This document shows, in pieces, positions 2,763 to 18,013 of a DNA stretch of 19,015 nt. Each line of letters starts with the position of its first letter. Positions within the stretch are counted from its first letter, which is position 1. The stretch spans positions 1 to 19,015 of the forward strand of contig JAOISU010000013.1 in the NCBI GenBank assembly GCA_028222445.1, written 5' to 3'. The translations under genes and the position numbers were made by a program. Origin of the DNA: Candidatus Pelagibacter sp. GTDB lineage: Bacteria; Pseudomonadota; Alphaproteobacteria; Pelagibacterales; Pelagibacteraceae. The notes under the pieces were generated by a model, which searched no databases, was not told the DNA's origin, and saw only the letters and a list, made by a program, of their open reading frames with translations.

Positions 2763-2835
2763 TTTTTACTTATAAAAATTATATATATAAAAAATAAATT
2801 AAATTATAAATTATTAACACTAGAATTTAATTATT
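2763..2835. promoter_or_regulatory. AT-only spacer with possible weak terminator hairpin and promoter
   Basis: Only 4 of the 73 bases are G or C. At its start a six-pair A/T stem, TTTTTA (2763-2768) and TAAAAA (2773-2778), follows the lldD stop directly, and TATAAA-like -10 candidates lie downstream. It is the longest spacer in the first half of the window, so a promoter for the aminotransferase-glcDEF run could lie here. No convincing -35 box or operator is visible. Confidence 0.3.
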
Positions 2836-3999
2836 ATGAAATTGGCAAAAAATTTACAAAGACTAGGAACAGAATCTGCATTTAGTGTTTTAGCTGAAGC
2901 AAAAAAATTAGAAGCACAAGGCAAACCAATGATCCACTTAGGTTTAGGTCAGCCTGATTTTAAGACACCCCAACACGTAGTAGATGCTGCAAAAAAAGCA
3001 TTAGATGAAGGTCATCATGGATATGTTTTATCAAATGGAATTTTAGAGTGCAGACAAGCTGTTACTAGAAAAATTAAAAAACTTTACAATAAGGATATTG
3101 ATCCTGAAAGAGTATTGATAATGCCAGGTGGGAAACCAACAATGTATTATGCTATACAATGTTTTGGTGAACCAGGTGCGGAAATTATACATCCAACACC
3201 AGCATTCCCAATATATGAGTCAATGATTAATTATACAGGTTCAACAGCAGTTCCTTATGACTTAACAGAAGATAAAGATTTAAAATTTGATCCAGAAAAA
3301 ATTCTATCTTTAATTACAGATAAAACTAGATTGCTAATATTAATTAACCCGAATAATCCAACGGGAAGTTTTGTTGAAAAATCTGCAATAGATGTTTTAG
3401 CAGAAGGGTTAAAAAAACATCCTCATGTAGCAATCCTTAGCGATGAAATTTATAGTAGACAAATTTATGATGGAAAGGAAATGCCAACATTTTTTAATTA
3501 CCCCGATCTGCAAGATAGATTAATCGTTTTAGATGGTTGGAGCAAAGCTTACGCCATGACGGGTTGGAGAATGGGATGGAGTGTGTGGCCAGAAGAATTA
3601 ATACCACATGTAAACAGACTAATTATAAATAGTGTTTCATGTGTTAATGCTCCCTCACAATTTGCAGGAATTGCAGCTTTAGATGGACCAGATGATGCAA
3701 TCCATGAAATGATGGTAAAATTTGATCAAAGAAGGAAATTGATTCACGAAGGTTTAAATAGTTTACCAGGTGTGGAATGCAGTTTACCAGGAGGAGCCTT
3801 TTATGCATTTCCTAAAGTTATTGGAACAGGAATGAATGGTTCAGAATTTGCAAAAAAATGTATGCATGAAGCAGGGGTAGCAATAGTTCCAGGAACAGCT
3901 TTTGGTAAAACTTGCCAAGATTACGTAAGATTTAGCTATGCAGCTTCACAAGACAACATATCTAACGCATTGGAAAATATCAAAAAAATGCTAGGCTAA
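2836..3999 (+). CDS. PLP-dependent class I/II aminotransferase (aspartate aminotransferase-like)
   Basis: This 387-residue fold-type I aminotransferase moves an amino group between an amino acid and a 2-oxoacid in the cytoplasm. Visible features are the N-terminal GLGQPDFKTP (36-45), NPNNPTG (171-177), Asp203 and Tyr206 in SDEIYS, the PLP lysine Lys237 in WSKAYAMTGWRMGW with Arg245 nearby, and a late Arg in VRFSYA that normally binds the substrate carboxylate. The segment GYVLSNGILECRQAV replaces the more usual YTPVAGIPELR of AspC, so it belongs to a distinct subgroup. It sits 5 bases ahead of glcD, so an acceptor such as glyoxylate (giving glycine) or pyruvate is attractive, but this is inference from position. 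The true amino donor is unknown. Confidence 0.85.
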   Translation: MKLAKNLQRLGTESAFSVLAEAKKLEAQGKPMIHLGLGQPDFKTPQHVVDAAKKALDEGHHGYVLSNGILECRQAVTRKIKKLYNKDIDPERVLIMPGGKPTMYYAIQCFGEPGAEIIHPTPAFPIYESMINYTGSTAVPYDLTEDKDLKFDPEKILSLITDKTRLLILINPNNPTGSFVEKSAIDVLAEGLKKHPHVAILSDEIYSRQIYDGKEMPTFFNYPDLQDRLIVLDGWSKAYAMTGWRMGWSVWPEELIPHVNRLIINSVSCVNAPSQFAGIAALDGPDDAIHEMMVKFDQRRKLIHEGLNSLPGVECSLPGGAFYAFPKVIGTGMNGSEFAKKCMHEAGVAIVPGTAFGKTCQDYVRFSYAASQDNISNALENIKKMLG

Positions 4000-4004
4000 G
4001 ACTA

Positions 4005-5501
4005 ATGAGTGAATTAGTTCTGCCAAAGATTGACAAAGCAACGATTAATAAAAAAGAATATATTTTTAAAAATCTTGCAAAAATTATCAATCCAGAAAAT
4101 GTTTTAAGTCATGCAGATGATATTAAACCATATGAAACTGATGCATTAGCAGCTTACACACAGACACCATTGGCTGTTGTGATGCCAGAAAACACTGAAG
4201 AAGTAAGTAATATTTTAAAATTTTGTCATAAAGAAAATATTAAAGTTGTACCAAGAGGGGCCGGCACTGGTCTTTCAGGAGGAGCCCTACCTTTAAATGA
4301 TGCAATTTTATTAAGTCTTGGAAAATTTAATAAAATTATAGAAATTGATTTTGAAAATAAATGTGTAGTAACCCAACCTGGTGTAACAAATTTAGGAATA
4401 ACACATGCTGTACAGCATAAAAATTTTTACTATGCGCCAGATCCATCAAGTCAGCTTGCATGCTCAATAGGAGGCAATGTTGCTGAAAATTCTGGAGGCG
4501 TCCATTCTCTAAAATATGGAACGACAACTAATAATATTTTAGGTGTTGAAATGGTAATGATGGATGGAACAGTTTGTAGAGTTGGTGGAAAAACTCTTGA
4601 TCAAGAAGGGTATGATCTAATGGGATTAATTTGTGGTTCAGAAGGATTATTAGGAGTGATTACTGAAGTGACAGTAAAAATTTTAAAAAATCCTCAAGTC
4701 GTTAAAGCAGCACTAATAGGCTTTCCAACAATTGAAGAAGGTGGAAATGCAGCATCGGAAATAATTTCAAGTGGAATTGTTCCAGCAGGTATGGAAATAA
4801 TGGATAAAGCTTTGATAGAGGCAACAGATAATTTTAGTAAAGCAGGATATCCAAGAGATGCAGAACTTTTATTGATTGTAGAATTAGATGGAACCGAATC
4901 TGAGGTAGATGAATTATTAAAACAAGTCAGAAGTATTTGTGAAAAAAATAATTGCTCAAGTTTAAAATTGAGTAAAAATGAAAAAGAAAGACTATCATTT
5001 TGGGCAGGTAGAAAAGCAGCATTTCCAGCATGTGGAGCTATGGCACCAGATTATTATTGTATGGACGGATCCATACCAAGAGGAAAACTTGCGGAAGCTT
5101 TACTTGAAATAAAAAGACTTTCTGAAAAATACAAATTACCTGTAGCAAATTGTTTTCATGCAGGAGATGGAAATTTACATCCATTAATAATGTTTGATGG
5201 AAGTGATAAAGAACAACTGCGAAAAACAGAGGAATTTGGAGCCGAGATACTAAAGACGTGCGTTAGATTAGGGGGAGTGATCACTGGAGAACATGGGGTA
5301 GGAGTAGAAAAAAGAGAACTAATGTGTGAGATGTTTAATAATACAGATATTCAACAACAATTAGATATTAAAAAATCACTGGATGAAAAAAATTTACTAA
5401 ACCCAGGAAAAGTTTATCCAATATTAAGAAAATGTGCAGAGGAAGGAAGGGTACATGTCCACAGAAATGAAGAAAAATTCCCAGATCTTCCAAGATTCTA
5501 A
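4005..5501 (+). CDS. glcD: Glycolate oxidase FAD-binding catalytic subunit GlcD
   Basis: This 498-residue flavoprotein of the PCMH/VAO family oxidises glycolate (often also D-lactate) to glyoxylate, delivering electrons through GlcE and GlcF to the respiratory chain. The FAD domain spans about residues 50-230, with PRGAGTGLSGGA (83-94), PDPSSQLACSIGGNVAENSGG (145-165) and GSEGLLGVITE (211-221). The C-terminal cap has HAGDGNLHP (385-393), GEHGVG (428-433) and NPGKVYP. Length matches E. coli GlcD. Its last 47 bases are shared with the start of glcE in another frame, and glcE and glcF follow, so assignment as GlcD rather than a stand-alone D-lactate dehydrogenase is firm. Confidence 0.94.
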   Translation: MSELVLPKIDKATINKKEYIFKNLAKIINPENVLSHADDIKPYETDALAAYTQTPLAVVMPENTEEVSNILKFCHKENIKVVPRGAGTGLSGGALPLNDAILLSLGKFNKIIEIDFENKCVVTQPGVTNLGITHAVQHKNFYYAPDPSSQLACSIGGNVAENSGGVHSLKYGTTTNNILGVEMVMMDGTVCRVGGKTLDQEGYDLMGLICGSEGLLGVITEVTVKILKNPQVVKAALIGFPTIEEGGNAASEIISSGIVPAGMEIMDKALIEATDNFSKAGYPRDAELLLIVELDGTESEVDELLKQVRSICEKNNCSSLKLSKNEKERLSFWAGRKAAFPACGAMAPDYYCMDGSIPRGKLAEALLEIKRLSEKYKLPVANCFHAGDGNLHPLIMFDGSDKEQLRKTEEFGAEILKTCVRLGGVITGEHGVGVEKRELMCEMFNNTDIQQQLDIKKSLDEKNLLNPGKVYPILRKCAEEGRVHVHRNEEKFPDLPRF

Positions 5502-6735
5502 TAATACTTATTATCCAGAAGATGAGCTGCAAGTTTCAAATCTAGTTCAGGAACTTTACAAAAAAAACCAACCAACAGAAATAATTGGCACAGGTTCAAA
5601 AAATTTTATTGGTAACAACATTCAATCTGCAAAAAAACTATCTATGTCTAAGTTGTCAGGTGTAATTGAGTATTTGCCTGAAGAACTATATATTAAGGTT
5701 AAAGCTAACACACCATTAGAGTTAGTTGAAAAGGAGTTAGAAAAAAACAATCAAGAACTTGCTTTTGAGCCTATTGATTTTGGATTTATTGAAAATGGAA
5801 AATCAAATAAGGGCACCATAGCAGGCCATTTAGCTTGTAACTTTGCTGGCTCTCGAAGATTTAAAGTAGGAAGTTTAAGAGATCACATATTAGGTTTTAG
5901 AGGTGTGAATGGTAAAGGAGATATAATTAAATCAGGTGGGACAGTTGTAAAAAATGTTACAGGTTATGACCTATCAAAACTAGTAACAGGATCTTTTGGA
6001 ACTTTAGTTGCTTTAACTGAAATAACATTGAAGGTTCTACCTAAAAAAAAATTATCTAATACAATTACTATACATACTGATGATAAAAAATTAGTTAAAA
6101 ATTTATTTGATAAGATATCTAGTTCAAGCAGCGAAGTCTCTGGAGCTGTTTATATTCCTGAAGAACCCAAAGATGAAAATTATGACCAAAACAAAGAGAT
6201 GGTCTTTAAATTTAATGACTTAAAATACAAAGGTTCATTTTTAGCACTAAGAATAGAAGGAGATAAAATTTCAATAGATGAAAAATTAAAAGCTTTAACA
6301 AATGAACTGGAGCTTAGTAAGCTGAATACAACAGTTTTAGATGTTCATCAATCAACACCATTTTGGAAAAAAATAAATAATCTTGAAATATTCAAATCAA
6401 CAAAGAATAACCTTTTAAGAGTAGTAGTGCCTCCTTCGAAAGGCCCTAAGTTGATGCAATTCTTAGGTAATAAGTATAAATATTACATTGATTGGTGTGG
6501 CTCATTATATTGGATAGAGGTTCAATCAAAAAAGAACTCTAAGGTTAGCGATATTAAAAAATTGACCAAAGAATTAGGTGGTTATTTAACTATCATAAAG
6601 ACATCGGATGAATATGATTACGAAGAAACAATTTTTACAGTAGACGATATAAGACTTTTAATATCAGAAAAGATCAAAAAAAGTTTTGATCCTAAAAGAA
6701 TTTTTAATCCTGGAAAAATGTATAGAGGAATTTAA
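5455..6735 (+). CDS. glcE: Glycolate oxidase FAD-binding subunit GlcE
   Basis: This 426-residue FAD-binding subunit partners GlcD in the glycolate oxidase complex. FAD-domain motifs are GTGSKNFIG (45-53), NKGTIAGHLACNFAGSRRFK (118-137), the segment from LRDHILG to SGGTVVKNVTGYDLSKL, and GSFGTLVALTEITLKVLP (179-196). It ends with the family's FNPGKMYRG. The ATG at 5455 is preferred because AGGAAGG (5440-5446) lies 8 bases before it; a GTG at 5434 in the same frame has no such site, and the next ATG at 5467 has none either. The start lies inside glcD, giving a 47-base overlap. The stop overlaps the glcF start by one base (TAATG), which indicates coupled translation. Confidence 0.92.
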   Translation: MSTEMKKNSQIFQDSNNTYYPEDELQVSNLVQELYKKNQPTEIIGTGSKNFIGNNIQSAKKLSMSKLSGVIEYLPEELYIKVKANTPLELVEKELEKNNQELAFEPIDFGFIENGKSNKGTIAGHLACNFAGSRRFKVGSLRDHILGFRGVNGKGDIIKSGGTVVKNVTGYDLSKLVTGSFGTLVALTEITLKVLPKKKLSNTITIHTDDKKLVKNLFDKISSSSSEVSGAVYIPEEPKDENYDQNKEMVFKFNDLKYKGSFLALRIEGDKISIDEKLKALTNELELSKLNTTVLDVHQSTPFWKKINNLEIFKSTKNNLLRVVVPPSKGPKLMQFLGNKYKYYIDWCGSLYWIEVQSKKNSKVSDIKKLTKELGGYLTIIKTSDEYDYEETIFTVDDIRLLISEKIKKSFDPKRIFNPGKMYRGI

Positions 6736-8030
6736 TGCAAACAAACTTTACTGAAAAACAATTAAAAGACAGTGACAACGCTGCAACAGAAAAAATTTTT
6801 AAAAAGTGTGTTCATTGTGGTTTTTGTAATGCAACTTGTCCAACCCATCAAATATTTGGTGACGAATTAGATGGACCGCGAGGAAGAATTTATTTGATTA
6901 AAGATATGTTGGAAAATCAAAAAAAGCCAACAGCAAAAACTGTAAAACATATAGATAGATGTTTGTCTTGCTATAGCTGCATGACCACTTGTCCTGCTGG
7001 AGTAAATTATATGCACATCATTGATCATGGTAAAAAATATATTGAAAAAAACTATGAAAGATCTTTTTTTGATAGAACAATTAGAAATTTTTTATCAGTA
7101 GTGTTACCAAACACAGGATACTTTAGATTAGCAAGTTATATGGTTAAATTAGCTAAACCTTTTCAATTTTTAATGCCATTAAAAATAAAAGATATGATGA
7201 ATTTGATGCCAACAAGTTTTCCAAAAAAAACTATAAAACAAAAAGAAATTTATTCTGTAAGTGGGAAAAATAAAATTGCAAGAGTTGCTCTTTTAACTGG
7301 ATGTGTTCAAAAAGAAATTTCTCCTCAAATTAATGAGGCAACAATAAGACTTTTAAATAGACATGGAGTTGAAGTGGTTGTGCCTAAAAAGATCAGATGT
7401 TGTGGATCATTAAATCATCATTTGGGAAAAGAAGATGACGCGCACCAAGATTTTAGAAATAATATTAATACTTGGTATGACGAACATCAAAAAGGAAATT
7501 TAGACGCTATTTTATCAAATACTTCTGGCTGTGGAACTACCATGAAAGACTATGGTTTCATTTTTAAAGATGATGAAGAAATGAAAAAGAAAGCAAAAGT
7601 GATCTCCGATTTAACAAAAGATGTTTCTGAATATTTAGATACTAATTTAAAATTAAATTTTAAAGTAAAAGATAAGAAGTACAAAATTGCTTATCATTCT
7701 GCATGTTCAATGCAACATGGACAAAAAGTACACAGTCAACCCATGTCATTACTTTCAAAAACAAATAATGAAATTATGGAAATTCCAGAAGGCCACATCT
7801 GCTGTGGATCTGCTGGAACTTATAATATTTTGCAAACTGAAATTGCCAAAGAATTATTAAGTAAAAAAGTAAAAAATATTGAAAGTTTGAAACCAGATTT
7901 TATATCAACTGGAAATATTGGTTGTATTACTCAAATTTCTAATGGAACGAAAACTCCAATTTTACATACCATTGAGATATTAGATTGGTATACTGGTGGC
8001 CCAAAACCAAAAATATTACAAAAAAACTAA
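6735..8030 (+). CDS. glcF: Glycolate oxidase iron-sulfur subunit GlcF
   Basis: This 431-residue subunit carries electrons from the GlcD/GlcE flavins toward membrane quinone. Two [4Fe-4S] ferredoxin motifs are at Cys25/28/31/35 (CVHCGFCNATCP) and Cys76/79/82/86 (CLSCYSCMTTCP). Two CCG domains follow: Cys190 with Cys222-Cys223 and Cys266, then Cys324 with Cys356-Cys357 and Cys397, as in heterodisulfide reductase-type quinone-linked subunits. Length is as expected. It starts on the last base of glcE and is followed after 2 bases by a hydroxyacid dehydrogenase gene, all in the same orientation, so one transcript is likely. Confidence 0.94.
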   Translation: MQTNFTEKQLKDSDNAATEKIFKKCVHCGFCNATCPTHQIFGDELDGPRGRIYLIKDMLENQKKPTAKTVKHIDRCLSCYSCMTTCPAGVNYMHIIDHGKKYIEKNYERSFFDRTIRNFLSVVLPNTGYFRLASYMVKLAKPFQFLMPLKIKDMMNLMPTSFPKKTIKQKEIYSVSGKNKIARVALLTGCVQKEISPQINEATIRLLNRHGVEVVVPKKIRCCGSLNHHLGKEDDAHQDFRNNINTWYDEHQKGNLDAILSNTSGCGTTMKDYGFIFKDDEEMKKKAKVISDLTKDVSEYLDTNLKLNFKVKDKKYKIAYHSACSMQHGQKVHSQPMSLLSKTNNEIMEIPEGHICCGSAGTYNILQTEIAKELLSKKVKNIESLKPDFISTGNIGCITQISNGTKTPILHTIEILDWYTGGPKPKILQKN

Positions 8031-8032
8031 CT

Positions 8033-8986
8033 ATGAAAAAAATTCTAATTACACGAAGATTGTTAAAAGAGTCTGAAGACAAAGCTTCAAAAATGTTTGA
8101 TGCAAAGTTTAACAGCAATGATGAATTATATTCTCAATCAAAGCTTATCGAATTAAGTGAAGGTCATGATGCAGTATTAACTTCTTTAACTGATAAAATG
8201 GATGAAGAGACCATAAACAAACTTCCAGACAGTATTAAGGTAATTTCTAATTTTGCAGTTGGATTTGGAAACATTGATTTAGAAGCAGCAAAAAAAAGAG
8301 GAATAGCTGTAACTAATACACCAGAAGTTTTATCTGATGCCACAGCTGAGATTGGAATTTTATTAATTCTTGGAGCATGTAGAAGAGTTCCAGAGGGTGT
8401 TCAGGCTGCAAAAGAAAGTAGCTGGAAATGGTCTGCAGATTATTTGATAGGAAAACAGTTAACTGGTACGAGGCTTGGAATTTTAGGAATGGGGAGAATA
8501 GGTCAAAAGATTGCAAAAATTGCAAAATCTTTAGGAATGATTATTCATTATCATAACAGATCAAAACTAAGTGATGAAAAAGAACAGGGTGCCATTTATC
8601 ATGATAGCATTAAAAGTCTTTTTGGAGTTTCAGATGTATTGTCAATTTGTTGCCCTGCAACAAAAGAAACAGAAAATTTAATTAATAAAGAAACATTAGA
8701 ATATTTTCCAACAGGTGCGGTTATAACAAATGTAGCTCGTGGAGACATTGTTGAAGATGAAGCTTTAATAGATGCATTAAATAGAAGAAAAATCTATGCA
8801 GCAGGACTTGATGTTTATAAGGGTGAACCAAATTTAAATCCAGGCTATCTGAAGATTAAAAGTGTTTTTATTTTGCCTCACCTTGGAAGTGCCACTAAGC
8901 ACACAAGAATTGCTATGGCCAATCTAGCCATAGACAATATTGATGAGTTTTTCAAAACAGGAAATTGTAAAAATAAAGTAAATTAA
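8033..8986 (+). CDS. D-2-hydroxyacid dehydrogenase, glyoxylate/hydroxypyruvate reductase type
   Basis: This 317-residue NAD(P)-dependent enzyme interconverts a 2-oxoacid and a D-2-hydroxyacid; glyoxylate to glycolate or hydroxypyruvate to D-glycerate are the likely reactions given the neighbours. The Rossmann motif is GILGMGRIGQKIA (149-161). The catalytic residues are Arg236 (NVARGD), Glu265 (KGEP) and His283 (LPHLGSAT). Asn-Arg-Ser at 175-177 after the second strand suggests NADPH preference (inference). The ATG at 8033 is chosen because it starts 2 bases after glcF and gives the normal N-terminus KKILITRRL; an in-frame ATG at 7985 inside glcF would add 16 unrelated residues. It could balance GlcDEF by recycling excess glyoxylate. 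Confidence 0.86.
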   Translation: MKKILITRRLLKESEDKASKMFDAKFNSNDELYSQSKLIELSEGHDAVLTSLTDKMDEETINKLPDSIKVISNFAVGFGNIDLEAAKKRGIAVTNTPEVLSDATAEIGILLILGACRRVPEGVQAAKESSWKWSADYLIGKQLTGTRLGILGMGRIGQKIAKIAKSLGMIIHYHNRSKLSDEKEQGAIYHDSIKSLFGVSDVLSICCPATKETENLINKETLEYFPTGAVITNVARGDIVEDEALIDALNRRKIYAAGLDVYKGEPNLNPGYLKIKSVFILPHLGSATKHTRIAMANLAIDNIDEFFKTGNCKNKVN

Positions 8987-9006
8987 TTTCTTTATAATTT
9001 TTAATT

Positions 9007-10224
9007 ATGAATAAAGTTATTTTACCAAAACAAAAAGCGATAACTATATTTTTGGTATTTGCTCTTGGTTATTATATCTCTAATTTACTAAGAGCAATCA
9101 CTGCAACTATTTCACCTAATCTTATATCAGAGTTTGATTTATCAGCTGGTGACTTAGGACTTTTGGGAGGTGGATATTTTTTAGGTTTTGCTGCTGTTCA
9201 AATTCCATTAGGTTATTTATTAGATAATAAGGGACCAAAAAAAATAGTATCATATTTTTTACTTATAGCTGTATTGGGTATGATTTCATTTTCTTTATCA
9301 GAAAATTTTATTACTCTTTTAATATCAAGAATTTTAATTGGAATAGGTGTGGGCGCTTGTTTGATGGGGCCACTTACTGCTTATAGAATTTGGTATCAAG
9401 ATGAAACGCAACAAAGAGCAAATTCATGGATGTTAATGGTGGGCGCAATTGGAATGCTCTCTTCTAGTTTGCCAGTACAATTTTTTTTACCGATAATTGG
9501 ATGGAGAATGATATTTATCACTTTAGCTCTATTAACCATATTTTGTATTATCTTAATTATTTTTTTTATACCTAATTGGAACAAAGCAAATATTCAAAGT
9601 AACTCAAATGATAATGGTTCTTTAAAAGAAATTTGGAACAATAGTTTTTTTAAAAGCTTAGTTCCAATGGGATTTTTTAATTATGGCGGATTGTTTGCTA
9701 TTCAGACACTTTGGGCAGGACCATGGATGATTAAAGTTTCAGGATATACACCCGAACAAAGTGCAAATGGTCTTTTCTTAATTTATTTTTCTCTCTTAAT
9801 ATCATTCCTATCTTGGGGCTATTTAGTTCCTAAAATTTCAAAAAATGTTTCAGATGCGATAAGATTATTGAAGTTTGGTGCACCGTTAAATTTAATTGTT
9901 CTAGCTTTTATAATTTATCTTGGACCTAAAGCAGGAGCATATCACTGGGCTTTTTTTGCTGTAAGTTCTGTTTTTTTATCCTTAACCCAACCAGCAGTAG
10001 GTATGGCTTTTTCACTTTCAAATGCAGGAAAAGCACTGACATCATTTAATCTGCTTCTTTTTATTGGAGCATTTGCGCTTCAATGGATCATTGGCGTTAT
10101 TATTGATCTCACAATGAACTTAGGCTATTCAGAAATTTCAGGCTTTAGATTTGCTATGATATTTTTTTTATTAACTTCTTTCTTTTCCTATCTATTTTTC
10201 TTAATAAGAAATTATAAAAATTAA
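9007..10224 (+). CDS. Major facilitator superfamily transporter
   Basis: This 405-residue inner-membrane protein has about 12 predicted membrane segments. An MFS motif A variant, GYLLDNKGPKK (69-79, with Asp73 and Gly76), lies in the loop between helices 2 and 3, and a glycine-rich helix 4 (RILIGIGVGACLMGP) matches motif C-like patterns. Family-level resemblance is to the NarK/organic-anion permease side of MFS. It lies 20 bases after the hydroxyacid dehydrogenase gene, at the end of the hydroxyacid run, so it may import glycolate, lactate or a related carboxylate. That is inference from position, and the substrate cannot be read from sequence. It ends 2 bases from the convergent regulator gene. 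Confidence 0.86.
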   Translation: MNKVILPKQKAITIFLVFALGYYISNLLRAITATISPNLISEFDLSAGDLGLLGGGYFLGFAAVQIPLGYLLDNKGPKKIVSYFLLIAVLGMISFSLSENFITLLISRILIGIGVGACLMGPLTAYRIWYQDETQQRANSWMLMVGAIGMLSSSLPVQFFLPIIGWRMIFITLALLTIFCIILIIFFIPNWNKANIQSNSNDNGSLKEIWNNSFFKSLVPMGFFNYGGLFAIQTLWAGPWMIKVSGYTPEQSANGLFLIYFSLLISFLSWGYLVPKISKNVSDAIRLLKFGAPLNLIVLAFIIYLGPKAGAYHWAFFAVSSVFLSLTQPAVGMAFSLSNAGKALTSFNLLLFIGAFALQWIIGVIIDLTMNLGYSEISGFRFAMIFFLLTSFFSYLFFLIRNYKN

Positions 10225-10226
10225 TT

Positions 10227-11309
10227 TTATTTTAGATGTTTGTAAATTGTGGTTCTTGATACACCAAGTTTTCTAGAAGCTGCACTAATATTTCCAGTTT
10301 CTATAAATGCAGATTTAATTAAAACACATCTTTCTTCCTTAAACTTAGAACCTTTACAGTTATTGCACGCATAAGTTTTTATTCCTGTTTCTTTGGATAT
10401 TTTTTTCTTAAAATTTTGACTTTTTATTATAAAGACAGACGAACCTAAATGATCAGAAATTTTTAGGATTTTATTTTGTAAAAGTTCATTTGCTATTGAA
10501 GAAAATGAAGTTGTAAAAATATTATTAAAATTCTCATTCTTTAATGGTGCTAGTCCATGTAGCATTATTCGTGCGTTTGAATTAGAACCAACAACAAATC
10601 CATCACCATTAATTGCAAGCAAACCAACACTATTAGTACTAAGATATTCTTGGCGTGGATGGAAAGATAAAATTAATTCATCTTTAAATTGATTTATAAA
10701 TAATTTTGTTTCGATGCTTTTTGTAGCAAGCTTAACTAGCGCCAGTGTGTGCTGCTCTCTTGAATGCACATCAGTAGAAGCATCTATTATACCTATTGTT
10801 TTACCTTCATGATTTAGTATTGGACTTGCAAAGCAAGATAATTTTCCATGTGACTCAAAAAAATGCTCTTTACCTGAAACTATGGAGTCTTTATTGAGAG
10901 TTACAACCTGTCCTAATCCATTAGTACCTCCAATTTCTTCTCTCCAAATTGAACCTGGTATTACAATTTTTCCAACATCAGTTTTAAGACAGGTTTTATC
11001 GTAAATAGTATCCATAACTGAGCCAGTGCTGTCAGAATATGCTACCATAAAGTTTGTTCCAGCTATTTGTGAATATAGAAGTTCAAGCTCAGGATTTATC
11101 AGTCTTCTAATATATTCATTTTTTTCTTTAAGCTCATTAAGCTCTTTAAAAGAAAGAATCGTTCTCTTTGGTTTTTTAAGCGGATCCAATCCTGTTGAAA
11201 TACATCTCTTCCAGCTATCAGCTATATCTTTATCAATCAAAGAAGATAAAAAACCTCTTTTCTTAGTGAGGTTAGAGAATTCTTTTTCAACAGATGTTAA
11301 ATTTGGCAT
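10227..11309 (-). CDS. AcoR-like GAF/Fis-type transcriptional regulator lacking the AAA+ sigma-54 domain
   Basis: This 360-residue protein has the layout of acetoin-type regulators at both ends. The N-terminus is the typical DSWKRCISTGLDPLKKP (31-47). A GAF sensor domain covers about 75-205 (TDVGKIVIPGSIWREE, GGTNGLG, SHGKLSCFASPI, GIIDAS), and a PAS-like segment covers about 225-300 (GLLAINGDGFVVGSN). A Fis-type helix-turn-helix closes it (336-359, GNISAASRKLGVSRTTIYKHL). No Walker A/B or GAFTGA segment lies between, so it cannot remodel sigma-54 polymerase; it probably acts as a direct activator or repressor with sigma-70. Cys315, Cys318 and Cys328 precede the HTH. It is transcribed divergently from the alcohol dehydrogenase-ABC operon, its likely target. 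The ligand is unknown. Confidence 0.85.
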   Translation of the reverse strand: MPNLTSVEKEFSNLTKKRGFLSSLIDKDIADSWKRCISTGLDPLKKPKRTILSFKELNELKEKNEYIRRLINPELELLYSQIAGTNFMVAYSDSTGSVMDTIYDKTCLKTDVGKIVIPGSIWREEIGGTNGLGQVVTLNKDSIVSGKEHFFESHGKLSCFASPILNHEGKTIGIIDASTDVHSREQHTLALVKLATKSIETKLFINQFKDELILSFHPRQEYLSTNSVGLLAINGDGFVVGSNSNARIMLHGLAPLKNENFNNIFTTSFSSIANELLQNKILKISDHLGSSVFIIKSQNFKKKISKETGIKTYACNNCKGSKFKEERCVLIKSAFIETGNISAASRKLGVSRTTIYKHLK

Positions 11310-11361
11310 TTCTTATTTTAGGTCATAATTAAAAATGAACAACCAACCAGAAGTTGTATTT

Positions 11362-11378
11362 TGTTAACTTTTTGAACA
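11362..11378. promoter_or_regulatory. Operator-like imperfect palindrome TGTTNA-N5-TNAACA
   Basis: The sequence TGTTAACTTTTTGAACA has half sites TGTTNA and TNAACA separated by 5 bases. It lies about 107 bases before the dehydrogenase start, upstream of the candidate promoter, as expected for an activator site. It shares TGTTA with the second inverted repeat. Assignment to the adjacent Fis-type regulator is inference. Confidence 0.45.
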
Positions 11379-11423
11379 CTTTTTTGTGCAGTTGACTCTT
11401 AGTTGACCTGAATATTGGATAGG

Positions 11424-11449
11424 GTTTGTTATTAAAAAAATTAACAAAC
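11424..11449. promoter_or_regulatory. Perfect 8-bp inverted repeat GTTTGTTA-N10-TAACAAAC
   Basis: The arms GTTTGTTA (11424-11431) and TAACAAAC (11442-11449) are exact reverse complements around a 10-base A/T centre. The repeat overlaps the possible -10 region and ends 20 bases before the dehydrogenase ATG, so a bound protein could block or tune transcription. A weak RNA hairpin in the leader is the alternative. The TGTTA/TAACA core recurs in the palindrome upstream. Confidence 0.5.
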
Positions 11450-11469
11450 AAAAAAAATAGAGAGTAATT

Positions 11470-12531
11470 ATGAAAGCACAAGTTCTACATAAATATAATC
11501 CAAAAATGGATGAAAAAGTTTGGGTGACTGAGCAAGAAATGCCAGATCCAAAATTAGAAAAATCGTCAGATGTTATTGTTAAAATTGGTGCTGCAGGAGT
11601 TTGTAGAACTGATTTACACATTATCGAAGGTGTATGGGAACATATTCAAGATCCTAAAGGAGATTTATTACCCATGGTTATGGGTCATGAAAATGCGGGT
11701 TGGGTTGAAGAAGTGGGCAAGGATGTTGTTGGATTTAAAAAGGGTGATCCAGTAATTTTGCACCCAATCATCTCAGGAACAGATGGAACTTGTTTAAGCT
11801 GTCGTAGAGGCTTAGATCAGCATGCAGAAGAAGGTGCCTTTCCAGGACTAAACATTAAAGAAGGTGGATATGCTGAACTGCTTAAAACTAGTGTTCGTAA
11901 CTTAATTAAACTACCAACAATATTAGCGCCAAAAGATGTTGCACCATTTTCTGATGCAGGACTTACCGCTTATAGAGTTGTTAAAAAAGCTACTAGACAT
12001 TTATTACCAGGTCAGACTTGCGTAATTATTGGAGCTGGTGGACTGGGTCATATAGCAATTCAATGTTTGAAAGCAATGTGTGCTGCAAATATTATTATTG
12101 TTGAAAAATCTGCTGAAGCATTAAAACATGCGATGTCACTTGGTGGTGATGAAGGAGTTTTGATTGATGGCAATGAAGTTGAAAGAGTTTTAGAACTTAC
12201 CAAAGGTAAAGGTGGTGAAGCTGTAATCGATTTTGTTGGTGAAAAAGGATCCACTGCAATGGGAATCAAAATGACAGCAGGAAGTGGATACTATTATATC
12301 GTTGGCTATGGTGAAGAAATCAGAGTTCTAGCTGTTGATGTAATTATTTCAGAAAAAACAATTGTTGGAAATTTAGTGGGAACGTGGTCTGAGTTATATG
12401 AGCTGATGGAGTTAGCTAACAAAGGGTTAGTTACGCTTTCTATGCAAGAATATAAATTAGGCGATGCTAATAAAGCACTTCATGATCTTAACGAGGGTAA
12501 AGTTAAAGGAAGAGCTGTTTTAGTTCCATAA
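11470..12531 (+). CDS. Zinc-type MDR alcohol dehydrogenase, NAD-dependent
   Basis: This 353-residue medium-chain dehydrogenase probably oxidises an alcohol or polyol to the carbonyl compound with NAD+. Catalytic zinc ligands are Cys45 (GVCRTD), His73-Glu74 (GHENAGWVEEVG) and probably Asp162 (DAGLTAY) in the position often held by Cys. The Rossmann motif is GAGGLGHIAIQ (188-198), with Glu212 ending the second strand, which suggests NAD. The structural zinc loop is degraded: only Cys108 and Cys111 remain of the usual four, with Asp105 and Ala119 at the first and last positions and His118 adjacent. It leads the operon with the ABC importer genes, 21 bases before the binding protein, so it probably acts on the imported compound. 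The substrate is not recognisable. Confidence 0.86.
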   Translation: MKAQVLHKYNPKMDEKVWVTEQEMPDPKLEKSSDVIVKIGAAGVCRTDLHIIEGVWEHIQDPKGDLLPMVMGHENAGWVEEVGKDVVGFKKGDPVILHPIISGTDGTCLSCRRGLDQHAEEGAFPGLNIKEGGYAELLKTSVRNLIKLPTILAPKDVAPFSDAGLTAYRVVKKATRHLLPGQTCVIIGAGGLGHIAIQCLKAMCAANIIIVEKSAEALKHAMSLGGDEGVLIDGNEVERVLELTKGKGGEAVIDFVGEKGSTAMGIKMTAGSGYYYIVGYGEEIRVLAVDVIISEKTIVGNLVGTWSELYELMELANKGLVTLSMQEYKLGDANKALHDLNEGKVKGRAVLVP

Positions 12532-12552: not shown

Positions 12553-14088
12553 ATGAAAATAATAAAAACTTGCCTAAGTGCTATGATATCAGGAATTCTG
12601 ATATTTAGTCCAGCTTATGCAGATAAGTGGAGTGATCAATTTCCACATATCAAAGCGACAGGAGATATTCCAGGTGATTGTTCTTACGAAGAAATTTCTA
12701 AGAAAAATTATAAAGGAAAAACTCTTAAAATAAATACGCACGCTGTTCCAGTAATTGGACAGCCTACAGCTCTTCATGCTGAACAGTTTGCAAAACTAAC
12801 CGGCGCAACAGTTGATGTAACACATACACCTGCAGGTGATTTGTATGCAAAAGCTATGGTTCCTTTTAAAGCTGGTCAAGCCCCATACGATATCGTATTT
12901 GGTTTTTCTAACTTTATAAATGACTGGAGACAGTATTTAGCACCAGTTCCAAAAAAATACATGAACACAAAAGAGATGAAAGACGTTACAAAATCTCATG
13001 TGGGTGTTTCTTCTTGGGATGGAACTATGTACCAATATCCAGTTGATGGAGACAGACATTATCTAAAATACAGAAAAGACGTAATAGATAATCCTGAAAT
13101 GCAAAAAAAATACAAAGCAGACACTGGTAAAGAGTTAAAAGTTCCTACAACTTGGAAAGAATATGGCGAAATGGCCAAATATTTTAATGGTTGGGATTGG
13201 GATGGAGATGGAGAAAAAGAATACGGTTCAGCTGAAGTTATGAAAAAAGACGACTTAATGTTCGCAGCTTTTTTCAGTAGATCAGTAGCGTATGCTAAAA
13301 ATCCTAGAACTCCAGGTGGTTTCTTTTTTGATTTAGAAACTATGAAACCAAATGTTAACAATCCAGGGTTTGTTGAAGCTTTAACTGACTGGGTAGAAGC
13401 TACTAAGTATGTTCCTCCAGGAGGAATTAACTTTGGACTAGGTGATGAAATTGGATCATTTGGTGGTGGCCAAACTTTATTTAGTTTTTCATGGGATGAT
13501 GCTTTTATTGCAGCAATGCAAGATGATAGTCCTATTAAAAATAAAGTAGGTACAGCTCCTCTTCCAGGCGCAGACAAAGTTTGGAACAGAGTTACTGGCA
13601 AATGGGATAACAAATACAACCAAGCACCGTACATTGTATGGGGTTGGGCAGTAGGTGTTGCTAAGAAAAGTAAAGTTCAAGAGATGGCGTTTGATTATCT
13701 TTGTTTCTTTTCTAATGGAGCAAACCACCAAGCTGACTTAGCTATTGGTAACTTTGGTGTTAATCCATTTAAAAACTCTGATTTCGATCCAAATCTTTAC
13801 ATAGATACAATGGGTTGGGATAAAGAGATTGCAGAATCTTACACTAAAACACTTAAAGACATGGAAAAAAGTAAGAATAGAGTTTTCCCTTTAAGAGTTC
13901 GTGGTGTATTTGAGTTCACTAGTGCAGTTGCAACTGGAACTTCTAAGGCTTTAGCTGGTCAGCTATCTCCTCAAGAAGCTTTGGATGAAGTTGCTAAAGA
14001 ATGGGAAGCAATTGTCAAAAGAGTTGGTAAATCAGCAGTACAAGAGGATTATGCTGTTGGTGTCAAAATGGAAGACAATAAGTTATAA
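12553..14088 (+). CDS. ABC transporter periplasmic substrate-binding protein (family 1, long form)
   Basis: This 511-residue protein captures the substrate in the periplasm for the ABC importer encoded downstream. A signal peptide ends at about residue 23 (FSPAYA, then DKWSDQ). The mature part has family 1 features: a first beta-alpha unit around KTLKINTHAVPV, EQFAKLTGATVDV (77-89), PYDIVFGFSNF (111-121) and a tryptophan- and aromatic-rich middle. A DWDGDGEKEYG loop (215-225) resembles the calcium-binding loops seen in some members. It is longer than the usual 400-450 residues. Sugar or polyol is the likely class given the permease and ATPase types, but the ligand cannot be assigned. A perfect hairpin follows the gene and probably raises its expression relative to the permeases. 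Confidence 0.87.
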   Translation: MKIIKTCLSAMISGILIFSPAYADKWSDQFPHIKATGDIPGDCSYEEISKKNYKGKTLKINTHAVPVIGQPTALHAEQFAKLTGATVDVTHTPAGDLYAKAMVPFKAGQAPYDIVFGFSNFINDWRQYLAPVPKKYMNTKEMKDVTKSHVGVSSWDGTMYQYPVDGDRHYLKYRKDVIDNPEMQKKYKADTGKELKVPTTWKEYGEMAKYFNGWDWDGDGEKEYGSAEVMKKDDLMFAAFFSRSVAYAKNPRTPGGFFFDLETMKPNVNNPGFVEALTDWVEATKYVPPGGINFGLGDEIGSFGGGQTLFSFSWDDAFIAAMQDDSPIKNKVGTAPLPGADKVWNRVTGKWDNKYNQAPYIVWGWAVGVAKKSKVQEMAFDYLCFFSNGANHQADLAIGNFGVNPFKNSDFDPNLYIDTMGWDKEIAESYTKTLKDMEKSKNRVFPLRVRGVFEFTSAVATGTSKALAGQLSPQEALDEVAKEWEAIVKRVGKSAVQEDYAVGVKMEDNKL

Positions 14089-14156: not shown

Positions 14157-15017
14157 ATGAACTTTAAACATAAATACATTTTTCTATTTCCTGGTTTATT
14201 TGTTCTTATAGGTATCTTAATTTTCCCGATAATATTTGTAGTTCGTTTAAGTTTATCAGGGTGGAATAGTTATAATGGTTTAAATTTTATAGGCCTTGAA
14301 AACTATATAAGATTATTTACAGATGACCCAAGGTTCTGGGAATCATTTTTTAGATTAAGTTTTTTGTCAGTAACAACTGTTGTTCTTCAATATGTAATTG
14401 GTTTTGCATTAGCACACATGGTCTGGAAGGAAATTAAGTTTCAAAGGTTTTTTAGAGTATTATTTTTAATACCTATGATGACCACACCAGTTATCATGAC
14501 TGTTATTTGGAGAACTTTTTTTCATGAATCTCTAGGTCCTGTAAATGATATTCTGGGTAACTTTGGTCTTTCACCAAAATGGCTCACAGACCCTACTTTA
14601 GCTAAATTTACTGTAATTATTGTTGAGGTTTGGCAGTGGACACCTTTTATGTTTTTACTATTGTTAGCAGGCCTTTTATCACTTCCAAAGGAACCATTTT
14701 TAGCAGCTGCAATTGATGGAGCTAGCCCAGTCAGAAAATTTATCTATGTAACATTTCCATTAATGGCACCTATATCTATCGGTGCAATTATTATTAGATT
14801 GATTGAAGCCTCAAAGATAATGGATACAGTTTATGTGTTAACCTCTGGTGGTCCAGGAACCTCAACTGAGACTTCAAGTTTTTATATTTTTATTAAAGGT
14901 TTGAGAGAGTTTCAAATGGGATATGCAGCTTCAATGTCATTCACATATTTAATAATAATGATCATAAGCTTAACTGTTATTGCAAAAGTATTAACTAAAT
15001 TATTACTAAAAGATTAA
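14157..15017 (+). CDS. ABC transporter permease, UgpA/MalF-like (first inner-membrane subunit)
   Basis: This 286-residue protein has about six membrane helices and forms half of the importer channel. The EAA loop that contacts the ATPase is at about 183-203 (AAAIDGASPVRKFIYVTFPLM). The N-terminus (FPGLFVLIGILIFPI), the SLSGWNSYNGLNFIGLENY segment and the late TSGGPGTSTETSSFYIF are typical of the carbohydrate-type MalF/UgpA branch. It follows the intercistronic hairpin and sits 2 bases before the second permease, so the two are coupled. A carbohydrate or polyol substrate fits the branch; the exact one is unknown. Confidence 0.91.
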   Translation: MNFKHKYIFLFPGLFVLIGILIFPIIFVVRLSLSGWNSYNGLNFIGLENYIRLFTDDPRFWESFFRLSFLSVTTVVLQYVIGFALAHMVWKEIKFQRFFRVLFLIPMMTTPVIMTVIWRTFFHESLGPVNDILGNFGLSPKWLTDPTLAKFTVIIVEVWQWTPFMFLLLLAGLLSLPKEPFLAAAIDGASPVRKFIYVTFPLMAPISIGAIIIRLIEASKIMDTVYVLTSGGPGTSTETSSFYIFIKGLREFQMGYAASMSFTYLIIMIISLTVIAKVLTKLLLKD

Positions 15018-15019
15018 AT

Positions 15020-15868
15020 ATGGGAAAACTATATACATTTTTAAAATATTTTTTTATAACAATTTGGACAGTATTTGTTGTGGCACCTTTTCTTTGGGCA
15101 CTTACAACTTCCTTCAAAGATTTTAATTCAGTTAATGGAGGTGTTACTTATATTCCATGGGTTGATTTTGAACCAAACCTAGAAGGTTGGAGGGTTTTAA
15201 TTAAATCACCAGCAGAAGGAGGGGTAGATATTGTTGAACCTTATTTTAACAGTCTGTTTGTAACATGTACTGCGAGTTTAATAAGTATAATCCTTGGAAC
15301 CTTATCTGCTTATGCACTTTCAAGATATACTTTTAAAGCAGGTCCCATAAAAAATAACGACATTACCTTCTTTTTTATTTCTCAAAGAATTATGCCACCA
15401 ATTGTTTTATCAATACCTTTCTTCTTATTTTTAGGAGCTGTAAATTTATTAGATAGCCTAATCGGGCTGATAGTCGTTTATATCGTATTGTTAATGCCTA
15501 TAGCAGTTTGGATTATGGTTGACTTCTTTAACAAGGTACCAAGAGAAATAGATGAAACAGCATTAATAGATGGATGCAATCCTTACCAAGCATTTTTTAA
15601 AGTCGTATTACCAAATTCAATACCAGGTTTAATTGTTGCTGGAATGTTTTGTATAATATTTGGATGGATCGATTTCTTTTTTGCATTTATTCTAACTTTT
15701 ACTGAAGTACAATTATTACCAGTTAAAATAGTTGCCTTAAATTCTTCAATTACACCATGGTGGAGCTTATCTGCTTCAGCATTAGTTTCTGTTGCACCAT
15801 TAATCGTAGTTGCATTTATTGTTGAAAGATATTTGTCAAAAGGAAATTTGTCTGGAGCAATTAAATAA
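15020..15868 (+). CDS. ABC transporter permease, UgpE/MalG-like (second inner-membrane subunit)
   Basis: This 282-residue protein has about six membrane helices and forms the second half of the channel. The EAA loop at about 179-198 (ETALIDGCNPYQAFFKVVLP) is the ATPase docking site. The N-terminus has the usual pattern of a helix, then LWALTTSFKD and a periplasmic loop rich in Pro and Gly (about 31-75), as in MalG/UgpE proteins. It ends on the first base of the next gene's ATG (1-base overlap), so permease and ATPase translation are linked. Cognate partners should be the two unlike ATPases encoded next. Confidence 0.91.
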   Translation: MGKLYTFLKYFFITIWTVFVVAPFLWALTTSFKDFNSVNGGVTYIPWVDFEPNLEGWRVLIKSPAEGGVDIVEPYFNSLFVTCTASLISIILGTLSAYALSRYTFKAGPIKNNDITFFFISQRIMPPIVLSIPFFLFLGAVNLLDSLIGLIVVYIVLLMPIAVWIMVDFFNKVPREIDETALIDGCNPYQAFFKVVLPNSIPGLIVAGMFCIIFGWIDFFFAFILTFTEVQLLPVKIVALNSSITPWWSLSASALVSVAPLIVVAFIVERYLSKGNLSGAIK

Positions 15869-16947
15869 TGAATTTAGTTGGTGAAAATTTATCATATAAA
15901 TTAACTGAAGAGTTACAGTTGAGAAATATCTCTTTTAATTTTGAAAAGGGAAAATTATATACAATTTTAGGAAGAACACTTTCTGGGAAAACGACCCTAT
16001 TAAAAACAATAGCTGGATTACTTATGCCTGATAGTGGAACAATTAAATTTGAAGGTAAGAATTTTTTAGAGATACCAGTATGGGAAAGAAATATTGCTAT
16101 GGTTTATCAGCAATTCATTAACTACCCTCACTTAAATGTTTTTGAAAATATAGCCTTTCCATTAAAACAGAGAGGTTTAGATCCTCAAAAGATTAATGAA
16201 GAAGTTTTTAATTCTTTAAAATTAGTAGGATTAGAGGGCTATGAAAAAAGAAAAATTCAAGAATTATCAGGCGGTCAACAACAAAGAGTTTCAGTTGCAA
16301 GATCACTAGTAAAAAATGCAAAAATTTTATTACTAGATGAACCATTAGTTAATTTAGATTACAAGTTAAGAGAACAGTTGCGTGAAGAGTTTAAAAACAT
16401 ATTCATTAATGGCCTATCGGAAGAGAGTATTGTAATTTTTTCAACAACAGATCCTAGAGAAGCAATGGAACTTAATGGTGAAGTTATTGTTCTTGATGAG
16501 GGTAAAGTACTTCAAGTGGGTGCTGCAAAAGAAATATTTGAAAACCCTAAAAATTTAAAAGTTGCAGCCATTTCAAATGATCCACCAATGAACATTTTAA
16601 AAGCTGAGATAGATTCTAATAAAATAAAATTTGAAAATATTGAAATAGATATTCCAGATCATTTATCTAAAATAAAAGATAAAGATTTTAATTTTGGCAT
16701 AAGGGCATCAGATGTAGAATTAAATGATAATGGATTTGAGTTTGAAGTAGAGCTTGCAGAAATTAGTGGTTCAGAAACCTTACTCCATCTAACTAGAGGA
16801 AATGCAAAAATTATAACCAGTATAGAAGAAGTTATGGATTTTAAAATCCGAGATAAAGTTAAAATTAATTTTAAATCAAACAAAGCTTATGCATTTGATG
16901 AAACTGGAAATTTAGCCTCATCTCCATTTGGAGGTAGTAGTGTCTAA
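15868..16947 (+). CDS. ABC transporter ATPase 1, GlpS-like, lacking the switch histidine
   Basis: This 359-residue cytoplasmic ATPase of the importer has Walker A GRTLSGKT (35-42), Q-loop MVYQQFINYP (78-87), an intact signature LSGGQ (133-137), and Walker B ILLLDE (153-158) with catalytic Glu158. The position of the H-loop histidine (normally VTHD) is STTD, with Thr194 in place of His. A TOBE-like C-terminal region covers about 240-345. The Q-loop wording and missing His resemble, from memory, GlpS of rhizobial glycerol importers. It should pair with the ATPase encoded next, whose defect is complementary. Translation is coupled at both ends: 1 base overlaps the permease gene and 8 bases overlap the next gene. 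Confidence 0.91.
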   Translation: MNLVGENLSYKLTEELQLRNISFNFEKGKLYTILGRTLSGKTTLLKTIAGLLMPDSGTIKFEGKNFLEIPVWERNIAMVYQQFINYPHLNVFENIAFPLKQRGLDPQKINEEVFNSLKLVGLEGYEKRKIQELSGGQQQRVSVARSLVKNAKILLLDEPLVNLDYKLREQLREEFKNIFINGLSEESIVIFSTTDPREAMELNGEVIVLDEGKVLQVGAAKEIFENPKNLKVAAISNDPPMNILKAEIDSNKIKFENIEIDIPDHLSKIKDKDFNFGIRASDVELNDNGFEFEVELAEISGSETLLHLTRGNAKIITSIEEVMDFKIRDKVKINFKSNKAYAFDETGNLASSPFGGSSV

Positions 16948-18013
16948 AATTAATTTAAATAAGATATCTCATTCATATAATCCAAATGATGCAAACCCAA
17001 CTTATGCACTAAACCCGTTTTCAATGACCTGGGAAGATGGAAAGAGATATGCAATTTTAGGCCCGTCTGGATGTGGTAAAACAACAATGTTAAATATTGT
17101 ATCAGGGCTAGTAAGGCCTTCATCAGGAAAAATATTATTTGACGATAAAGATGTTACGGATCTTAAAACTGAAAATAGAAATATTGCGCAAGTTTTCCAG
17201 TTCCCAGTAATTTACAGCACCATGACTGTATATGATAATTTGGCTTTCCCTTTGAGATGTAGAGATTTTTCTAAAGAAATAGTGGATGAAAGAGTTAATT
17301 CTGTTGCAGAGACATTAAATTTAAAATCTTTCTTAAATTTGCCTGCTAGAAAACTTACTGCAGATCAAAAACAATTGATTTCTCTTGGCAGAGGACTTGT
17401 AAGAGAAGATGTAGCAGCAGTTCTAATGGATGAGCCATTAACAGTTATAGATCCTGATTTAAAATTTAAATTAAGAAGAAATCTTAAAGAAATAAACGAA
17501 CAATACAAAACGACTCTCGTATACGTTACGCACGATCAAAACGAAGCCATGACTTTTGCTGATAATATAGTTGTTATGAGTGAAGGTGAGGTGGTTCAAA
17601 CAGGAACACCCAAAGAATTATTTGAAAGACCTAATACTACTTTTGTTGGATATTTTATAGGTTCTCCAGCAATGAATTTATTTGAAACTGATGCATCATC
17701 AGCCAATAGTGTTAAAATTAATGATACTTTAATTAAAACAAGTACAGATTTATCAAAACTAAAAGATAAAAAAATTAAATTAGGCATAAGGTCAGAGTTT
17801 ATTAAGATAGCCAAAGATCAAAAAGAAAACGTAATTAGTGCGAATGTAGAAAAAGTGGAAGATCTTGGAAACTATAAATTGCTTACAGCAAAGATTGGAA
17901 GTCTTACAATAAAATCTAAAATAAGTAGAGAAACAGAAGTTCCATTAGATAAAGTAGACTTACATATACCTGAAGATAAGTGCTGCATTTATGAGAATGA
18001 AAAATTAATTTAA
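16940..18013 (+). CDS. ABC transporter ATPase 2, GlpT-like, with degenerate signature motif
   Basis: This 357-residue ATPase has Walker A GPSGCGKT (41-48), Q-loop QVFQFPVIYSTMT (84-96), Walker B VLMDE (161-165) and switch His198 in YVTHDQNEAM. The signature is LTADQ (139-143) instead of LSGGQ, so both glycines are lost. A TOBE-like tail covers about 245-350. The start is taken as GTG at 16940 because GGAGG (16930-16934) lies 5 bases before it; a TTG at 16928 in frame would put that site inside the gene. It overlaps ATPase 1 by 8 bases and ends one base from the convergent HupE-like gene. The LTADQ-KQLISLGRGLVR wording recalls GlpT of the two-ATPase glycerol importers. Confidence 0.9.
   Translation: MSKINLNKISHSYNPNDANPTYALNPFSMTWEDGKRYAILGPSGCGKTTMLNIVSGLVRPSSGKILFDDKDVTDLKTENRNIAQVFQFPVIYSTMTVYDNLAFPLRCRDFSKEIVDERVNSVAETLNLKSFLNLPARKLTADQKQLISLGRGLVREDVAAVLMDEPLTVIDPDLKFKLRRNLKEINEQYKTTLVYVTHDQNEAMTFADNIVVMSEGEVVQTGTPKELFERPNTTFVGYFIGSPAMNLFETDASSANSVKINDTLIKTSTDLSKLKDKKIKLGIRSEFIKIAKDQKENVISANVEKVEDLGNYKLLTAKIGSLTIKSKISRETEVPLDKVDLHIPEDKCCIYENEKLI

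Follow-up and report, generated by a model that had tools for sequence, protein, structure and literature searches.

Complementary motif losses in paired MalK-type ATPases of a Pelagibacter ABC importer predict one hydrolytic and one degenerate ATP site

Two adjacent genes in a stretch of 19,015 nucleotides from Candidatus Pelagibacter sp. (contig JAOISU010000013.1 of assembly GCA_028222445.1; "the window" denotes this whole stretch) encode ATP-binding cassette (ABC) ATPases, A1 and A2, which deviate from the canonical pattern in different catalytic motifs. Very probably, the two proteins serve as the ATPases of one binding-protein-dependent importer of the MalK type (CUT1), forming an obligate heterodimer with one hydrolytic site. 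We infer the heterodimer, the assignment of the sites and the single hydrolysis from active-site residues, their conservation, gene pairing and the predicted folds of the subunits. As judged by comparison with relatives, the complementary losses belong to a family and are not specific to the window. The two genes and their motifs, placed by alignment to MalK, are listed below; sites A and B are the predicted hydrolytic and degenerate sites, respectively.

15868..16947, + strand: A1, MalK/UgpC-type ABC ATPase (GlpS-like), 359 amino acids, with a C-terminal regulatory domain
15970..15996, + strand: A1 Walker A, GRTLSGKTT (residues 35-43), site B
16264..16278, + strand: A1 signature, LSGGQ (133-137), site A
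16327..16344, + strand: A1 Walker B, LLLDEP (154-159), site B
16348..16359, + strand: A1 D-loop, VNLD (161-164), site A side
16447..16449, + strand: A1 Thr194 in the switch-His column, site B
16940..18013, + strand: A2, MalK/UgpC-type ABC ATPase (GlpT-like), 357 amino acids, with an OB_MalK domain
17060..17086, + strand: A2 Walker A, GPSGCGKTT (41-49), canonical, site A
17354..17368, + strand: A2 signature, LTADQ (139-143), site B
17420..17437, + strand: A2 Walker B, VLMDEP (161-166), site A
17441..17452, + strand: A2 D-loop, TVID (168-171), site B side
17531..17533, + strand: A2 switch His198 (motif VTHDQ), site A

A1 and A2 were translated and aligned to E. coli MalK, with which they share fold and length (an ABC domain followed by an OB-type regulatory domain, the OB_MalK domain being clear in A2). 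The A2 gene starts with GTG and overlaps the A1 stop by 8 bases. In the column of MalK His192, A1 carries Thr194 (motif STTDP, residues 192-196), and its LSGGQ signature is retained. A2 retains His198, and LTADQ replaces LSGGQ. These losses, with their coordinates and residue numbers, had been given correctly in a preliminary description of the locus made by a model from the letters alone. A functional histidine elsewhere in A1, an outcome considered in that description, was looked for by alignment; the only histidines of A1 are residues 88, 265 and 307, and none lies near the switch. In the AlphaFold model, the loop that links strand 188-193 to helix 196-202 carries Thr194. Beyond the preliminary description, Walker A of A1 departs from the canonical motif with Thr instead of Ser at the third position and with changes at neighbouring positions, and the D-loop of A2 departs as TVID. 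Lys41, Gln81, Asp157 and Glu158 of A1 are all retained. Asp142 of A2 occupies the second-glycine position of the signature, the same change as in CFTR G551D. The site A side shows a single departure, Val in place of the D-loop Ser of A1; many relatives have Ala here.

Each site of an ABC dimer is described as combining Walker A and B, Q-loop and H-loop of one subunit with the signature of the other (PMC7756269), and the H-loop His of HlyB reportedly also contacts the D-loop of the opposite subunit (PMC6222333). In this head-to-tail arrangement, Walker A and B, the Q-loop Gln and His198 of A2 would join LSGGQ and VNLD of A1 in the hydrolytic site A. Walker A and B, the Gln and Thr194 of A1 would face LTADQ and TVID of A2 in the degenerate site B. 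Four departures then fall in site B (A1 Walker A, A1 His, A2 signature, A2 D-loop) and one on the site A side. The geometry bears out the earlier placing of both losses in one composite site. The accompanying argument, that losses in the same site speak for selection, does not hold, because chance alone gives the same site half the time. Counting deviating elements as a chance test was also rejected: four in one site would be expected in 1 in 8 cases, and the A1 D-loop deviates on the other side. Site B had further been said to lack both the switch histidine and the signature; this is right, but A1 keeps Lys41, Asp157 and Glu158, so that ATP binding would be possible. With the Walker A Lys and the Walker B Asp-Glu of A1 retained, site B is by its residues degenerate, not stripped. 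By the same geometry, a homodimer of either A1 or A2 would have no complete site; on this ground, together with gene adjacency and the mirrored trees described below, we argue for an obligate heterodimer.

Relatives were collected in several ways. Matches were found in 12 of 61 near genomes and in 33 of 289 genomes of a class-level scan. Plasmid records were searched and six among the listed matches were fetched, and from a scan of GTDB contigs 80 loci were kept of 589 confirmed. A phylum-level scan of 398 genomes gave 85 with an A1 match of at least 413 bits (counted by eye in the table); the next ATPases scored at most 322 bits and no intermediates were seen. Of these 85 loci, 70 were fetched and read. 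Six of the 85 rows show a stop inside the match, and all six have an open A1 frame of 353-370 residues (trimmed) with the usual motifs. Sampling beyond Pseudomonadota came through plasmid matches and the pattern scan only, and the named origins of the contig scan include Pseudomonadota, Actinomycetota, Chloroflexota and Thermodesulfobacteriota. Because the contig-scan patterns included the A2 D-loop (DEPLTVID), which is a source of bias, the counts were redone on 109 distinct pairs found otherwise, though still through likeness to A1 or A2; the outcome was the same as for the full set, with TVID in 109/109.

An A1-A2 pair was present in 195 of the 219 relative loci read (220 minus the MalK locus). 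The remaining 24 are 23 canonical loci (L011, L012, L014 and L161-L180, the last 20 fetched as controls) and L043, a 3.6-kb contig on which the A2 frame is not intact and no A1 frame was found. All 195 pairs lie on the same strand with A1 upstream of A2, the A2 start at most 157 bases from the A1 stop (median 2), and as separate frames; none of the surveyed pairs is fused. The switch position of A1 is Thr in 183, Ser in 12 and His in none. LSGGQ of A1, its Walker A Lys and the Walker B Asp-Glu of both proteins occur in 195/195, and the Q-loop Gln of A1 in 193/195. The third Walker A position of A1 is Thr in 194 pairs and truncated in one, and A1 of L026 is cut short at Walker A. The A1 D-loop reads VNLD in 121 pairs, ANLD in 73 and MNLD in one. 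The switch His and TVID of A2 are present in every pair, LSGGQ of A2 in none; the second-glycine column holds Asp in 192, Ala in three and Gly in none. After removal of repeats, 186 distinct pairs from at least four phyla remained (A1 Thr 176, Ser 10, His 0; A1 LSGGQ 186; A2 His 186, LSGGQ 0; Asp142 183). The strict co-occurrence that the preliminary description had proposed to survey thus held in 186/186, and no operon without it was seen. The 25 canonical MalK/UgpC-type controls, which are not mutual orthologues (20 fetched, three from near genomes, two neighbours in other loci), had His in 25/25 and LSGG in 25/25 (24 LSGGQ, one LSGGM). Among the 120 listed of 7,984 near relatives of A1, all had Thr at the switch; one LSGGP and one Walker B DA were single metagenome sequences and may be errors.

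Three residues past the signature, Arg is found in A1 (195/195) and in the controls (25/25), and in A2 Lys (144), Leu (43) or Thr (8 of 195). This A2 column and that of the A1 Walker A Thr we take to be the columns of CFTR R555 and T1246, respectively. In CFTR, R555 beside one signature is reported to hydrogen-bond the Walker A residue T1246 of the other nucleotide-binding domain (NBD), and the two are described as co-evolved (PMC4956468).

Several loci vary further. In L111, L117, L121, L122, L125 and L126, which have the switch Ser, Pro replaces the first glycine of the A2 signature (LSPDN or LTPDV), and the A1 Q-loop is altered too (VHQFFVN or VHQFFIN); a cross-site co-change within one or two clades is possible. 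L127 has the switch Ser with LTADG. In the Chloroflexota loci L046 and L047, A1 has Glu for the Q-loop Gln and the A2 signature reads FTGAE or FTAAE, implying that site B can lose still more. In P0031, a metagenome relative of A1 with 428 amino acids, a segment of about 70 residues is repeated within the regulatory domain, possibly through an assembly error.

A tree of 157 ATPases was computed by a quick method and includes two very long rows (L078_C, L019_A1). A1 and A2 (68 rows each) form one clade each, both holding window and rhizobial rows (Shimodaira-Hasegawa-like approximate likelihood ratio test 100), on stems of 1.38 and 1.87 changes per column. The clades split alike, into 10 rows including the window and 58 rows including the glp-type loci. 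Pairwise distances of A1 and A2 were correlated (r 0.86, 67 dereplicated pairs); the highest value among 1000 permutations was 0.21. Because each ATPase is one clade, co-occurrence points to one origin plus maintenance and not to repeated gain; on the tree, the two losses are best placed once, on the stems, and would then have been maintained together. Inter-protein covariation (mutual information with average product correction; 195 pairs, effective number 81) was rejected as contact evidence because the top pairs were scattered and resembled the subfamily split, and the blocks for site A and site B were both raised.

Column variability was measured as entropy over the 67 dereplicated pairs. 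The A1 switch column ranked within the 22% of columns with the lowest entropy and the A2 Asp column within the lowest 28%; the Lys-Gln (KQ) after the A2 signature and TVID were invariant. Codons were compared among close relatives at least 65% identical (32 A1 and 33 A2 rows, window included): LTADQ, KQ, TVID, Thr194 and the A1 Walker A showed no amino-acid change and mostly synonymous variation. The case for selection rests on such family-wide conservation of altered residues and is mixed because some of them are held and others vary at near the average rate. Site B seems, from these profiles, to be partly re-specialised and partly relaxed. A salt bridge between A2 Asp142 and Arg36 in Walker A of A1 was considered and dropped, since the latter position is variable (R, P, A, T, S and others).

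The best-characterized relatives are GlpS and GlpT of the GlpSTPQUV system. Window A1 and A2 fall in the same two clades as these proteins, apart from UgpC/MalK, and the R. leguminosarum pair in glp gene order (L015) has the same losses (Thr, LTADQ, TVID). Both alignments suggested in the preliminary description, with MalK and with a rhizobial GlpS/GlpT-type pair, agree with its assignment. Ding 2012 is, by its title, reportedly the primary paper on GlpSTPQUV. The system is reported to be needed for glycerol use in R. leguminosarum and to import by ATP hydrolysis (PMC7912956); therefore, the two-ATPase layout belongs to a working importer. The Ralstonia cluster is reported as induced on glycerol (PMC11223650). 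A five-gene "glycerol ABC transporter" of Ruegeria with two ATPases, whose substrate-binding protein (SBP) is listed as confirmed by a mutant, has also been described (PMC9870897). JGI labels some close relatives "glycerol transport system ATP-binding protein", which is a label and not a test of substrate. Descriptions of the motif losses in GlpS/GlpT were not found in the open-licence PMC library searched, which leaves out most subscription journals.

For the reaction cycle, Mg-ATP binding on A1 in site B is probable, via Lys41, Asp157 and Glu158. Normal clamping and hydrolysis of this ATP would be prevented because the switch His is absent and Asp142 replaces the glycine that meets the gamma-phosphate, and each transport cycle would consume one ATP. 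In MalK, the H192R exchange is reported to leave less than 2% ATPase activity (PMC6222333). In ABCB10, mutations of the second glycine (G602V, G602D) reportedly reduce hydrolysis (PMC4459825), and in CFTR, G551D is described as repelling the ATP gamma-phosphate (PMC4956468). For exporters, ATP at the degenerate site has been proposed to act as glue (PMC7756269). Between ATP as glue and ATP repelled, the A2 Asp points, by analogy, to repulsion. A speculative and on balance unlikely extension is that this MalK-type branch, spread across several phyla, has a single hydrolytic site, and a dead site in which the signature Asp of A2 repels the gamma-phosphate of the ATP held by A1, so that NBD closure would be brief and reset fast, the opposite of the dead-site glue of exporters.

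Several points weigh against a heterodimer with one hydrolytic site. ATPase measurements and dimer structures were looked for and not found for any of these proteins. Site B may show residual hydrolysis, since A1 retains the Walker B Glu; TAP1 and many degenerate sites have Asp at this position. For Pdr5, hydrolysis has been reported in the absence of the switch His (PMC6222333). Site A is imperfect, the A1 D-loop Ser being Val or Ala in 194/195 pairs and Met in one. With a single origin, no independent repeats support the coupling of the losses. Positions 2 and 5 of the A2 signature lie at the 55th and 81st entropy percentile and positions 2 and 4 of the A1 Walker A at the 68th and 47th. The codon test has low power, with 197/359 A1 and 187/357 A2 columns invariant anyway. 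In Cupriavidus, a related cluster is described as dispensable for growth on glycerol, its derepression giving zinc resistance (PMC7912956).

An unlikely alternative, though one to be taken seriously, is a heterodimer with a nucleotide-free site B, in which the A2 Asp and the altered D-loop hold the site open and A1 serves as LSGGQ donor and permease coupler. The Asp in 192/195 pairs would fit this, as would a report that the same substitution makes ATP an inhibitory ligand at that position in CFTR (PMC4956468); the Lys, Asp-Glu and Q-loop Gln of A1, nearly all universal in the pairs, would be needless without Mg-ATP. It is improbable that both sites hydrolyse, with Thr/Ser194 and the LTADQ helix serving in another way. 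The retained Glu158, the Thr or Ser in 186/186 distinct pairs and the Pdr5 report are in line with such activity, to which are opposed the near-inactive MalK H192R, the joint alteration of His, signature, D-loop and Walker A of one site, and the variable positions 2 and 5 of the A2 signature. Plain decay of site B, its changes having no role, is less probable still: Thr/Ser194, Asp142 (183/186), the post-signature Lys-Gln (195/195) and TVID are kept across at least four phyla and lie within the most conserved 28% of columns or better. Decay could account for the fifth A2 signature position, more variable than 80% of A2 columns, for the likewise variable second Walker A position of A1, and for site B residues being, in close relatives, no better conserved than over half of the columns. 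Finally, homodimers, or separate transporters for A1 and A2, are hardly credible given overlapping genes, adjacency in one order in 195/195 pairs, mirrored trees and the lack of a complete site in either homodimer; nothing specific was found in favour of this reading, for which the homodimeric MalK is a general precedent only.

The heterodimer with one hydrolytic site was compared with known systems. MalK is described as a homodimer (PMC7756565), whereas the window encodes two unlike, adjacent ATPases with complementary losses. Among degenerate-site transporters, TAP resembles A1/A2 in that TAP1 lacks the switch His and the LSGGQ of TAP2 is altered, in one composite site (PMC6222333). TAP1 is reported to have Asp for the Walker B Glu (PMC6222333), whereas A1 keeps Glu, and TAP2 (LAA/VGQ) keeps the second glycine, which in A2 is Asp. 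The degenerate signature of Pdr5 is given as LNVEQ (PMC7756269). As in this class, the deviations lie in one composite site, the A1 D-loop Ser excepted; the common loss of the Walker B Glu is absent here (Asp-Glu of A1 in 195/195). TAP and TM287/288 are exporters and CFTR is a channel, whereas the window system is an importer. The preliminary description had called degenerate sites far less discussed for importers than for exporters, a fair statement except that RbsA and NupO are described as importers with one (PMC11466899). They belong to another importer class and are fused single chains in which the Walker A Lys is lost; the window has separate chains and keeps the Lys. The closed form of E. 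coli DppD/DppF reportedly holds two ATP analogues at the interface (PMC12136057), so unlike ATPases alone are no sign of a dead site.

The other genes of the importer and its neighbour lie upstream:

11470..12531, + strand: zinc alcohol dehydrogenase (ADH) kept beside this importer subfamily (ADH_N, ADH_zinc_N; synteny)
12553..14088, + strand: SBP of the same importer (synteny; weak match to 1eu8)
14157..15017, + strand: first permease subunit of this importer, MalF/UgpA-like (BPD_transp_1; synteny)
15020..15868, + strand: second permease subunit of this importer, MalG/UgpE-like (BPD_transp_1; synteny)

At E 0.001, the SBP matched neither Pfam nor NCBIfam; its matches to trehalose/maltose-binding proteins were weak (1eu8, E 1.8e-11). 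The Glp-type order in Rhizobium and Azospirillum is glpD-A1-A2-permease-permease-DUF2160-SBP-glpK (in L015, glpR precedes glpD), whereas the window reads ADH-SBP-permease-permease-A1-A2, without a DUF2160 (GlpU) gene, glpD or glpK alongside. Compared with 13 Glp-type loci, the permeases of the window are 25-33% and the SBP 22-29% identical. By tree and gene order, the window type is a sister subfamily of the Glp type. Its order was matched in SAR11, Marinovum, Tabrizicola, Rhodoferax, Streptomyces and an actinobacterial metagenome-assembled genome (MAG), and partially in two Chloroflexota MAGs (L046 lacks a separate second permease and L047 lies on a short contig). Several window-type loci contain a match to a divergent DhaR-like regulator, and one SAR11 genome (G013) carries both types (L005, L013).

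Within operons, both permeases are better conserved than either ATPase. This was seen for L015 against 14 Glp-type loci in 14/14 (A1 46-52%, A2 51-62%, permeases 63-72% and 73-82%, SBP 55-69% identity) and for the window against 8 window-type loci in 8/8 (A1 38-57%, A2 49-62%, permeases 54-84%). In canonical MalK-type loci, whose operons are not orthologous, conservation of the ATPase equalled or exceeded that of the best other frame in 95/103 locus pairs.

Positions 1611-12531, before the importer, encode an LldD-like enzyme, an aminotransferase, GlcD/E/F, a 2-hydroxyacid dehydrogenase, a major facilitator superfamily carrier, a DhaR-like regulator and the ADH. Some of these names, given by eye from sequence likeness, are putative. 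The regulator matched GAF and Fis-type helix-turn-helix domains and no sigma-54 domain. Several of the genes also stand beside the importer in other SAR11 loci. As substrate of the window type, a small polyol or diol undergoing stepwise oxidation would fit the neighbouring ADH, GlcDEF, LldD-like enzyme and 2-hydroxyacid dehydrogenase.

With exactly one complete site preserved throughout a natural family, the need for two ATP-hydrolysing sites becomes directly testable. The family is near MalK in fold and includes a glycerol importer with genetic data. It would provide an importer counterpart to TAP and CFTR, useful for asking what a degenerate site does.

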